Made by a program: the position numbers and the translations under genes. The notes beneath the pieces are model-generated. The model saw only the letters and a program-made list of their open reading frames with translations. It did no database searches and was not told the origin of the DNA. Positions 60,332-64,000 of a stretch of DNA of 64,000 nt are shown here, one piece after another. Location of the stretch: contig CAJBNH010000098.1 of assembly GCA_903955385.1 (NCBI GenBank), positions 1 through 64,000 on the forward strand. Direction: 5' to 3'. Every line of letters begins with the position of its first letter. Position 1 is the stretch's first letter. The DNA is from an uncultured Myxococcales bacterium (GTDB taxonomy: Bacteria > Myxococcota_A > UBA9042).

Positions 60332-61387
60332 ATGGCCACCAGGAACGCGGTCGGTGTGGACATCGGCGCCTCGGCGATCAAGGTGGCGCAAGTCCGCGAG
60401 ACCCCCCAAGGTCTGCAGCTGGTGGCGTTCGACTCGCTGTTGCTGCCCCCGGACACCCTGCGTGACGGCGTGATCCGGCAGCCCGGACTGCTGACCCAAC
60501 GTCTGAAGGATGCTTTTCGGCTCAACGGCATCAAGCCGCGGCAAGTCGCGCTTGCGGTGTCCGGGCCGTCGGTGTTCGTCAAGCGACTGCGGCTGCCGCG
60601 GCTGTCGGATGCGCAATACCAAGCTGCGCTGCGCTTTCAGGCCGAACAGCACGTACCGTTCGACGTGAGCGACGCGTATCTGGACGGCGTCATCGTCGAC
60701 CCCTCGCCCGACCCGAGCCACATGGACGTTCTGCTGGTCGCCGCCCGCAAGGCCGCCGTGGACGAGTGGACCTCTGTGGCCCACGCGGCACGGCTGCAGC
60801 CGGTGGTCGTGGACGTGGCAACGCTGGCCGTCTGCAACGCTTTCGAGGCGAGCGGTCAAGGTGCTGCCAACGAGATGTCGCTGCTGCTGGACGTCGGCGC
60901 CGCGCACACCCACGTGGCGGTCGTGTCCCGCGGTGTGCCGCTGCTGGCGTGCGACGTCGCAACCGGCGGCAACGCCGTGACCGAGGAATTGGCCCGGCAC
61001 TTCGGAGTGCCGTGGGACGAGGCGGAGCACCTGAAGACGACCAACGACACGGACCTTTCGACTCCAGACGTGCTGCGTGAAGTCCAACGCATCTCCGCGC
61101 GGGGCAGCGAGGCGTTGGTGGAAGAGGTGCGGCAGACGCTGGACCAGCTGCCCCCGGCCAGCCCGCGACCCACTGCGGTCTGGCTGAGCGGCGGGGCAGC
61201 TTCGCAGCTGGGGCTCGCCGAAGCGCTGGAGAAGTGTCTGGGGGTGACGGTGCACGTGCTGGACCCGTTCCGGCGGCTGAAGGTCGACCCCAACCAGTTC
61301 GATGCCCTCCTGTTGCGACGCATGGCCCCCTGTGCCGCGGTCGCTGTCGGTCTTGCGCTACGCGGCATGGCGGAGGCGGACCGATGA
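60332..61387 (+). CDS. pilM: type IV pilus assembly protein PilM
   Basis: This is a 351-residue actin-like cytoplasmic ATPase-fold protein of the pilus alignment complex. VGVDIGASAIKVAQV, RLRLPRLSDAQYQAALRFQA and the phosphate-binding SLLLDVGAAHTHVAVV are typical of PilM, which binds the N-terminal peptide of PilN. GGAG lies ten bases before the ATG. It overlaps the next gene by ATGA. Length is normal. Confidence 0.93.
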   Translation: MATRNAVGVDIGASAIKVAQVRETPQGLQLVAFDSLLLPPDTLRDGVIRQPGLLTQRLKDAFRLNGIKPRQVALAVSGPSVFVKRLRLPRLSDAQYQAALRFQAEQHVPFDVSDAYLDGVIVDPSPDPSHMDVLLVAARKAAVDEWTSVAHAARLQPVVVDVATLAVCNAFEASGQGAANEMSLLLDVGAAHTHVAVVSRGVPLLACDVATGGNAVTEELARHFGVPWDEAEHLKTTNDTDLSTPDVLREVQRISARGSEALVEEVRQTLDQLPPASPRPTAVWLSGGAASQLGLAEALEKCLGVTVHVLDPFRRLKVDPNQFDALLLRRMAPCAAVAVGLALRGMAEADR

Positions 61388-62028
61388 TCCGTGTCAACCT
61401 GATCCGCCCTCGCCCCAAGCCCCCGGCCGTGCGCCGCAAACGGCCGTGGCGTGCCCGGGCGATCCTGCTGGGCATTGCGCTGCTGCTGGTCGGCGCAGCG
61501 TTGTGGCGGATCCGCGACGGCGTGGCTCCGCCGGTCGATCAGGTGCAACGACGTCCTGCGGCTCCACTGGGCCGCCCTGCCGACCGTGAGCCGCCGGCCA
61601 GCTGGCCCGAGGCTGGATCCGTCACGCCAACTCAGGACGTGGCGCCCTTGCTGCCGGTGCCTGTCGAGCCCGACCAGCCGCCGCAAGTCTTCCCCCCGCC
61701 TGCGGAACCGGCGCCTGAATTCCCCACGGCCCCGGAAGCGTCGGGCGACGCCGCTCGTCAGCGACGGCCGCTGGGCGACTACCGTCTGGTCGGCGTGTTG
61801 ACCGGTCTGGCCGAGCCCCGCGCGCTGGTCGTGGACCCCAACGGTCAGGACTACGAGGTCCGCCCCGGCGACGCACTGGGAAGCGAGGGCGGGCGCATCA
61901 AGGCAATGTTCCCCGACGAGCTGGTCATCGAGGTGCCGGGGCGCACCGACCCCGTGCACTTGTCGATCGCTCCCGCGGCGGTCCAAGCGCCTGCCACAGC
62001 CCCCACCGTGCCCCCGCGTCGCCAGTAG
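61384..62028 (+). CDS. compact PilN/PilP-like hybrid protein
   Basis: This is a 214-residue protein in the position normally held by pilN, pilO and pilP. It begins MIRVNLIRPRPKPP, the short PilN peptide that binds PilM, then one transmembrane helix (ILLGIALLLVGAALW, about 33-47) and a Pro/Glu-rich linker. It ends in a beta-rich domain LGDYRLVGVLTGLAEPRALV, then DPNGQDYEVRPGDALG, resembling the C-terminal domain of PilP, which contacts PilQ. There is no PilN periplasmic coiled coil and no PilO. The role is inferred; the domain similarities are by eye only. Confidence 0.72.
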   Translation: MIRVNLIRPRPKPPAVRRKRPWRARAILLGIALLLVGAALWRIRDGVAPPVDQVQRRPAAPLGRPADREPPASWPEAGSVTPTQDVAPLLPVPVEPDQPPQVFPPPAEPAPEFPTAPEASGDAARQRRPLGDYRLVGVLTGLAEPRALVVDPNGQDYEVRPGDALGSEGGRIKAMFPDELVIEVPGRTDPVHLSIAPAAVQAPATAPTVPPRRQ

Positions 62029-62087
62029 CCCCGCCCCCCGGCGAAGACCGGATGTGGCCGCCGCCGCTTCCCTTTTTTTGACAGCAC

Positions 62088-62115
62088 CGGGGTCTGCACT
62101 AGCATCGGACGACCT
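62088..62115 (+). promoter_or_regulatory. sigma70-like promoter of the PilQ-like gene
   Basis: TTGACA (62088-62093, 6/6) preceded by a T-run, 16-base spacer, TAGCAT (62110-62115, 4/6), about 43 bases before the ATG. It suggests the PilQ-like gene can be transcribed independently of pilM. Confidence 0.5.
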
Positions 62116-62157: not shown

Positions 62158-64000
62158 ATGCTTGCGGACGGCACTTTTCGATCGAGGCTGGGTCCTGCGC
62201 TGGCGATCGCGGTGCTGTGGATCCTGACGCCGCTGGCCCTTGCCGCACCCGTCAGTCCGCCGCGCCCCCAGTCGCTGCTCGCCGTCGAGGTGGTCGAGGC
62301 GCCGCAGGCGACCGTCATCACCCTGCGGACCCGCCAAGCCCCCGCCTTCACTTCGTTTCGTCTGGATCAGCCCGCTCGCCTGTTCATGGACGTGGCCGGG
62401 GCGGCGATCGAGGTGGGCGCGCTGGGCTCGCAGACGATCGACAACGGCGTCGTGCGGTCGGTCGAGGCCCTGCCGTTCCAGCGTGGCAGTGTTCGACACG
62501 CGCGCATCATCGTCACCTTCCAGCGCGACGCCCTGTACCACGTCAAGGTCGACGGACAGGCCGTGGTGCTGACGATCGACGGCACCGACCGCAGGCCTGC
62601 CGCGGACCCCGCCGTCGCCGCTGCCGAACGGGAGCGGGCCAGACTGCAGCAGGAGGCGAAGCTGCAAGCGGCGCTGGCCCAGCAGGCCGAAAAGCAACGG
62701 CAAGCAGAAGCGGCGCAGCAGGCCGAAAAGCAACGGCAGGCCCAGCAGGCTGAGACGAAGCGACAGGCCGAATTGGCGCAACAAGCCGAGAAGAAACGGC
62801 AAGCCGAGCAGGCGCTGCAAGCCGAAAAGCAGCGGCGTGCCGAGCTGGCACAGCAGGCCGAGACGAAGCGGCAAGCCGATCTGGCGCAGCGGGCCGAGAA
62901 GAAGCGGCAGGCCGAGCTGGCCAAACAGGTCGAAAAGCAACGGCAAGCCGATCTGGCGCTGCAAGCCGAGAAGCAGCGGCAAGCCGAGCTGGCGCAACAG
63001 GCCGAGCGGAAGCGGCAGGCCAGGCTGGCGCAACAAGCCGAAAAGCAAAGGCAAGCGGTGGCGGCGCTAGCGTCGCAGGAGAACCGGCTGGACGGTCTAC
63101 TTCGCGACCACGAGGCGCTGCAGCAGCAGTGGCTGGACGAGCTGCGGGTGCATGAAGTGACGCTGGTCGCTGCCTTGGACGACGCCCGCCAGCGCAAAGC
63201 CGCAGCGACGACGCCGGGCGAGGCGAAGGCGTGCGACGAAGAGATCGCCCGACAGAATACCGAGTTGCAGCGTCTTCGTATGCGGGTGCAGGCGCGTGAG
63301 CTGGCCCGGCAGGAGGCGACCCGCGAGGGCCTGCGGCTGACCGAGGAACGCCGCAGGGCCGAAGGAGCCACCACCGAAGCTGCTGTGGCGCAACGGGAAA
63401 GGCGTCTTGCGATTTGGGAGGCCGACGCGCGGGCCCGCGCCTCCACCGCTCGCCAAGGCCTGGCCGCCGAACACCGGCGTCGCGAAGAGGCCCTGCGAGC
63501 CGCGAAAGCTGCCCCGCCACCGCCCAAGAGCGCGCCGCTGGACGACCACCTGCGACGTCAGCAGGCGCGCCTGAGGCTGTTGGCAGAGCGGGACACGGGC
63601 AAGTCCAAGGACAAACCCAAAGAGAACAAGGACAACGGCGAGGCTTCCAGCGTCGCGGTCCCGCCCCCGCCTGCGCTGCCCAAGGGTCCGGCAGAGGTCG
63701 ATGACGTCGCCATCACCGCCCGCGGCCCGCAGCAGGGCCGGGTAGAGCTGCCGTTGACGGGAAATGCCGCGGGCGCGCGCGCGCAGGTGATCGAGCGCGG
63801 CGCCAAGCGGTTGGTGGTGCGCGTGACTGGGGTGCGCCTGCCGGATCGCCTGCAGCGCGCCTATGACACCAAGGCTCTGCTGGGGCCGGTGGACCGGGTG
63901 ACCGTGTTCCGTCCGGAGCAGGGCAACGACGAAGTGCGGTTGGTGCTGGATCTGGCGCGACCGACGCTGGACCACCTGACCGTCGCGAACGGCAAGGTTC
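62158..64000 (+). CDS. PilQ-like AMIN-domain protein with long coiled coil (C-terminus cut by window edge)
   Basis: 614 residues are present and the gene continues past the right edge. The signal peptide ends at LTPLALAA. An AMIN domain (about 40-145: RLDQPARLFMDVAGAAIEVG, FQRDALYHVKVDGQAVVLTI) marks the N-terminus of type IV pilus secretins and of AmiC-type proteins. A very long Glu/Gln/Lys/Ala/Arg coiled coil (about 160-460) is dominated by 12-residue TolA-like repeats. A second AMIN-like segment starts near 520 (VELPLTGNAAGARAQVIERG, VTVFRPEQGNDEVRLVLDLA). Position after pilM and the PilN/PilP-like gene makes a secretin likely, but the secretin domain itself is outside the window. GGAGAAG precedes the ATG. 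Confidence 0.7.
   Translation, partial: MLADGTFRSRLGPALAIAVLWILTPLALAAPVSPPRPQSLLAVEVVEAPQATVITLRTRQAPAFTSFRLDQPARLFMDVAGAAIEVGALGSQTIDNGVVRSVEALPFQRGSVRHARIIVTFQRDALYHVKVDGQAVVLTIDGTDRRPAADPAVAAAERERARLQQEAKLQAALAQQAEKQRQAEAAQQAEKQRQAQQAETKRQAELAQQAEKKRQAEQALQAEKQRRAELAQQAETKRQADLAQRAEKKRQAELAKQVEKQRQADLALQAEKQRQAELAQQAERKRQARLAQQAEKQRQAVAALASQENRLDGLLRDHEALQQQWLDELRVHEVTLVAALDDARQRKAAATTPGEAKACDEEIARQNTELQRLRMRVQARELARQEATREGLRLTEERRRAEGATTEAAVAQRERRLAIWEADARARASTARQGLAAEHRRREEALRAAKAAPPPPKSAPLDDHLRRQQARLRLLAERDTGKSKDKPKENKDNGEASSVAVPPPPALPKGPAEVDDVAITARGPQQGRVELPLTGNAAGARAQVIERGAKRLVVRVTGVRLPDRLQRAYDTKALLGPVDRVTVFRPEQGNDEVRLVLDLARPTLDHLTVANGKV
62669..63060 (+). repeat. 36-base tandem repeat encoding a TolA-like coiled coil
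   Basis: About ten units of the 12-residue pattern AELAQQAEKKRQ (variants AEQALQAEKQRR, ADLAQRAEKKRQ, ARLAQQAEKQRQ) in register within the PilQ-like gene. Codons between units differ at several sites, so slippage is not very recent. Length could vary between strains. Confidence 0.85.

Follow-up and report, generated by a model that had tools for sequence, protein, structure and literature searches.

We found that pilM, a short hybrid gene and pilQ follow one another on the forward strand near the right-hand end of the window (the whole 64,000-nucleotide stretch of DNA analysed), with the following features:

60332..61387, forward strand: pilM, 351 aa (Pfam PilM_2, E=1.5e-52; PDB matches 3jc8 and 2ych).
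61372..61376, forward strand: GGAGG, a Shine-Dalgarno-like sequence for the hybrid gene, read directly within pilM, 7 nt 5' of the ATG.
61384..62028, forward strand: PilN-PilP hybrid gene, 214 aa (open reading frame; Pfam, relatives' alignments, AlphaFold and Foldseek).
61384..61407, forward strand: residues 1-8, MIRVNLIR, PilN-type PilM-binding peptide (match to relatives' PilN; PMC6325625).
61447..61515, forward strand: residues 22-44, single transmembrane helix (AlphaFold helix H22-44).
61516..61764, forward strand: residues 45-127, long disordered proline-rich linker (low-confidence AlphaFold; sequence).
61765..61974, forward strand: residues 128-197, PilP homology-region (HR) domain, the secretin-binding module (46% identity to the PilP of relative G008; AlphaFold; Foldseek).
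62054..62074, forward strand: weak terminator-like hairpin with T tract, at chance level.
62078..62105, forward strand: promoter-like TTGACA-16-TAGCAT, 5' of pilQ (10/12 matches; 0/50 shuffles).
62158..64000 in the window, continuing to contig position 65499, forward strand: pilQ, 1113 aa (two AMIN stretches, N0/STN, N1 and Secretin).

The source is a single genome (G000) of a bacterium related to myxobacteria, a metagenome-type assembly of 201 contigs, probably a MAG like its relatives, with 95.6% completeness and 1.26% contamination, in which genes beyond the window were called with a simple codon-score gene finder. The initial annotation had described a 214-residue gene overlapping pilM, with a PilM-binding MIRVNL peptide, one transmembrane helix and a PilP-like C-terminus, and all of these are present. 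The start codon of the hybrid overlaps the pilM stop as ATGA. It begins with MIRVNLI, exactly as does the PilN of one relative, and nearly all relatives' PilNs open with MIR(I/V)NL or something close to it; from the window composition, the probability of meeting the strict motif at a start by chance is ~5e-7. The first eight residues of PilN occupy a channel of PilM (PMC6325625). Peptide and helix 22-44 follow one another as in PilN, and the periplasmic PilN domain (PF05137) has no match in the hybrid; relatives' PilN proteins match it at 1e-9 to 1e-12. The hybrid has no lipobox, since the protein contains no cysteine, and the PilPs of its relatives carry one of ACGG type. The segment GENPxWxPI, conserved upstream of the HR domain in the family's PilPs, is also missing from the alignment, and the corresponding region of PilP contacts PilNO (PMC11870540). 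The linker resembles no relative's sequence. The hybrid retains the two binding ends and has dropped the parts that hold or contact PilN and PilO.

We next consider the C-terminal part, for which the initial annotation had proposed similarity to PilP. The similarity is present: Pfam PilP matches residues 118-181 with E=3.7e-5 and 24.1 bits, just under the curated cut-off of 25.6, and genuine PilPs of the same family score even lower (11.9-17.8 bits). When compared with same-family PilPs in a 19-protein database, on which the E values are based, it shows 32-46% identity over ~70-76 residues (E 2e-10 to 5e-19), with the best match in G008 (46% over 70 residues) and the others at 32-42%. AlphaFold, given a 22-row alignment, predicts the HR fold with a pLDDT of 91-98, and Foldseek places M. 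xanthus PilP at the top of its PDB matches, with PilP structures 3jc8, 2lc4 and 2y4y (M. xanthus, P. aeruginosa and N. meningitidis) followed by GspC 3oss. The GspC family model TIGR01713 gives 13.8 bits, short of the 101.6 needed, and there is no type II secretion (T2SS) gene neighbourhood. The HR domain would dock on the N0 domain of PilQ. In the papers searched, no PilN-PilP chimera is described.

PilM retains its ATP-site lysine, K17, which corresponds in the alignment to Lys-26 of the T. thermophilus protein (PMC6325625). Its branch length is 1.36 substitutions per site vs 0.06-0.16 in other genera, a rate ~tenfold faster. No acceleration was observed in ArgD, encoded by the gene adjoining pilM (0.16 vs 0.28-0.48 for comparable genera), and RsmA likewise shows none. 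Of 114 PilM positions invariant across 12 relatives, 40 are altered here, many of them in residues 82-117, which may border the PilN channel; because of these changes, binding of the hybrid peptide by PilM is a prediction.

By its domains, the gene 3' of the hybrid encodes a real secretin, in agreement with the earlier reading of a PilQ-like gene at this place, and aroK-aroB come after it. TTGACA sites upstream of pilQ are also found in three relatives. The PilQ core is accelerated as well (0.86), and the family-invariant columns are retained to 80% in N0, 69% in N1 and 39% in the gate/lip stretch, so that N0, the partner of the HR domain, is the best-kept part of PilQ. Such a pattern, with N0 kept and the gate/lip diverged, would follow if PilQ needs its HR-N0 contact but does not have to let a pilus through. 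In P. aeruginosa the HR domain of PilP binds PilQ N0 and the AMIN domain of PilQ binds peptidoglycan (PMC5285504).

The frames of pilM, the hybrid and pilQ are all open over ~1,680 codons, with ordinary codon bias. In a neutral-drift simulation that used substitutions only and one ancestral stand-in sequence, pilM alone, taken to 60% amino-acid identity, acquired ~3.8 stops, and the frame remained open in 1.7% of runs. With a single MAG and no congener, any current selection on these genes is putative.

Upon examining the rest of the genome, we found no full-length pilN, pilO or pilP elsewhere, and the absence of PilO and of a PilN periplasmic domain claimed in the initial annotation holds genome-wide, with none over cut-off. 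The best PilO score in the G000 contigs is 12.7 bits, in an 833-aa frame of C143, under the cut-off of 22, and relatives' PilO proteins reach ~48-51 bits. The only PilN match is one of 12.6 bits inside GspL, and no second PilP was found. We judged the models adequate because, in relatives of the same family, they detect both PilN and PilO, at 1e-9 to 1e-13. A second PilM match (C24:68727-69617) with a weak PilN match (67773-67964) is GspL and not a second pilus, as both lie in one 672-aa frame in the T2SS locus; this GspL-like protein (L007 7630-9648, on C24) has a PilM-like N-terminal half and the weak PilN-like stretch near its C-terminus.

The T2SS locus is complete, with GspC, GspD, GspE, GspF, four pseudopilins, GspL and GspM, and it contains the only T2SSF protein and the only GspE-type ATPase of the genome. 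PilB, PilC and PilT were not detected in G000, where the ATPases and platform consist of GspE, GspF and an FHA-CpaF-like ATPase. The latter accounts for a 60-bit T2SSE match at C194, which was rejected as PilB or PilT: it is a 626-aa protein with an FHA domain fused to a CpaF/T2SSE-like ATPase (L014 1315-3195), adjoining a second FHA protein. No type IV pilins were found either, the four T2SS pseudopilins being the only N_methyl genes over cut-off. By its gene content the bacterium is pilus-less, having lost the motor, platform and fibre genes. The radically simplified alignment complex that the initial annotation had envisaged stands in so far as the PilN tip and transmembrane helix are joined to the PilP HR domain and PilO is gone; as part of a working pilus it does not, since the searches recovered no PilB, PilC, PilT or pilins, and pilBCSR is missing from its conserved site.

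When comparing with relatives, we observed complete pilM-N-O-P-Q operons in the same family, beside the same ArgD-like neighbour. A condensed pilNOP occurs in none of the readable loci among 80 pilM loci of relatives in public genomes, nor among the same-family loci read; some contigs stop before pilQ. Conservation of the fusion in relatives, a check proposed in the initial annotation, is therefore not borne out: a conserved fusion family is rejected, as no relative's readable locus carries it, and the PilN-PilP condensation is specific to the lineage of G000. Within the family, 21/21 other genomes have at least 4 T2SSF domain matches, and G000 alone has a single T2SSF protein. The order in relatives is atpBE-tsaD-rsmA-pilB-pilC-pilS-pilR, with pilA following too in several, and in G000 four other genes stand after rsmA (C193:48313-49155), and next to them come the genes found after pilR in relative G010. 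The left flank of the missing pilBCSR is the same as in relatives and the right flank the same as in G010; the site lies within a 104-kb contig, and the cluster is cleanly missing by synteny rather than lost in an assembly gap. In another family of the same class, f9, three genomes (G029, G032 and G036) are without a close PilM and have one T2SSF protein only; type IV pilus loss there is apparently independent and complete, with the T2SS retained.

From the observed gene content, domains, intact frames, lost cluster and rate shift, we consider it probable that PilN and PilP were condensed in this lineage alone and that the product, GspC-like in layout, connects PilM with the PilQ secretin now that the pilus is lost. 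A standard pilMNOPQ operon would have had its pilNOP part condensed into one gene, with the disordered linker connecting the PilM-binding peptide and transmembrane helix of PilN with PilP's PilQ-binding HR domain; PilO, the periplasmic coil and fold of PilN, and the lipobox and upstream conserved segment of PilP would have been lost on the way. The same lineage would also have lost the type IV pilus engine, that is, PilB, PilC, PilT, PilS, PilR and the pilins. Together the encoded proteins would most likely span the envelope as a three-part bridge, with no pilus: PilM, in the cytoplasm, would grip the N-terminal peptide of the hybrid, the single helix would span the inner membrane and the linker the periplasm, and the HR domain would dock on PilQ N0 while the AMIN domains of PilQ hold peptidoglycan. 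In M. xanthus an integrated PilM-to-PilQ structure is present without pili (PMC3724824). We infer that the genes are expressed, that these contacts form and that the bridge continues in use, as an envelope tether or for positioning or gating the secretin. More tentatively, the PilM, PilN-PilP bridge and peptidoglycan-anchored PilQ might constitute a pilus-free device reshaped for another job, either an envelope or polar tether or a gated export/uptake pore, in effect GspC re-invented from PilN and PilP parts.

The one-protein PilM-to-PilQ bridge would be the simplest account, and its main rival is a slowly decaying relic, in which the rest of the operon drifts after loss of the engine, pilN and pilP were fused and pilQ was shortened by deletions, and the gene products are now functionless. 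The strong acceleration of PilM and PilQ, the diverged gate residues of PilQ, its coiled coil of 356 residues vs 1,260-1,720 in relatives, and family f9, in which PilM and the second T2SSF protein are lost entirely, speak for such decay. However, the three genes have stayed open with ordinary codon bias, exactly both binding ends and the transmembrane helix survive in the hybrid, the Shine-Dalgarno sequence and the promoter-like site of pilQ are preserved, and N0 has kept four fifths of its invariant columns, and we regard the relic as unlikely.

The remaining explanations fare worse. An assembly or binning artefact might be suspected in a metagenome-type assembly of this many contigs, but the locus lies in a 71-kb contig and the empty pilB site in a 104-kb contig, with family synteny on both sides, codon use is normal, the linker matches no relative and several genes changed together, which makes an artefact barely credible. 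It is improbable that the reduced set gives the T2SS another exit through, or anchor in, the outer membrane, with GspE and GspF as its drive. A full T2SS is present in the genome and PilP and GspC have similar HR domains, but this T2SS already includes a GspC and a GspD, PilM is distant from GspL (28% identity), and the same T2SS stands beside a full pilus in relatives. A working minimal type IV pilus with unrecognised or T2SS motors could draw on the retained PilM, HR domain and PilQ, but besides GspE, GspF and the FHA-CpaF-like ATPase there are no PilB/PilC/PilT-type genes, no pilin over cut-off lies outside the T2SS locus and the PilNO cage is gone, so that we hold this to be extremely doubtful.

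Compared with known systems, the preferred one-protein bridge shares PilM, the PilN N-terminus and transmembrane helix, the PilP HR domain, PilQ with AMIN, N0 and N1, and the pilQ-aroKB order with the PilM-PilN-PilO-PilP alignment complex of type IVa pili (M. xanthus, P. aeruginosa, T. thermophilus). Unlike in that complex, one 214-aa protein here replaces PilN, PilO and PilP, there is no PilO, PilN periplasmic domain or lipobox, and the genome is without motor, platform or pilin. With GspC of type II secretion the hybrid shares a short cytoplasmic end, one transmembrane segment, a linker and an HR domain, with docking on secretin N0 predicted by analogy; the N-terminus of the hybrid is, however, a PilN-type PilM hook, and G000 has a separate GspC (L083 2692-3669). 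Thermus PilW, encoded between pilO and pilQ, also has a long flexible proline/glycine-rich part and a GspC-HR-like C-terminal domain, but the pilus in which it acts is functional and includes PilN and PilO, and no PilN N-terminus is fused to it (PMC13039148). In the Campylobacterota flagellar motor, alignment-complex parts are re-employed as FcpMNO and PflD, the latter combining a transmembrane segment, a PilP-like loop and a PilQ-N1-like domain (PMC11870540); PilN/PilO homologues are retained there as part of the flagellum, whereas no FliF was detected in G000, and re-use of this kind was rejected. The locus suggests that two contacts, PilM with the PilN peptide and HR with N0, are able to persist alone when the PilN/PilO cage is gone. 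If functional, the bridge would be a natural minimal construct for probing whether PilM can communicate with a secretin through a single protein, and an example of pilus parts outliving the pilus; re-use has a documented precedent in the flagellar cage of the Campylobacterota. The hybrid is also a model for the origin of an adaptor like GspC out of PilN and PilP parts.

Finally, we observed that the PilQ proteins of the family and class are giant (~2,050-2,620 aa; relatives' L049, L051, L053, L055, L057 and L084-L086), with ~1,260-1,720 coiled-coil-like residues before N0, apparently between the two AMIN stretches. If extended, this stretch would far exceed the length needed for spanning the periplasm. 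The coiled-coil-like part of the window's PilQ comprises 356 residues only, and a 36-residue (108-bp) tandem repeat of the QAEKKRQAELAQ type is found in this PilQ at window positions 62739-63056.
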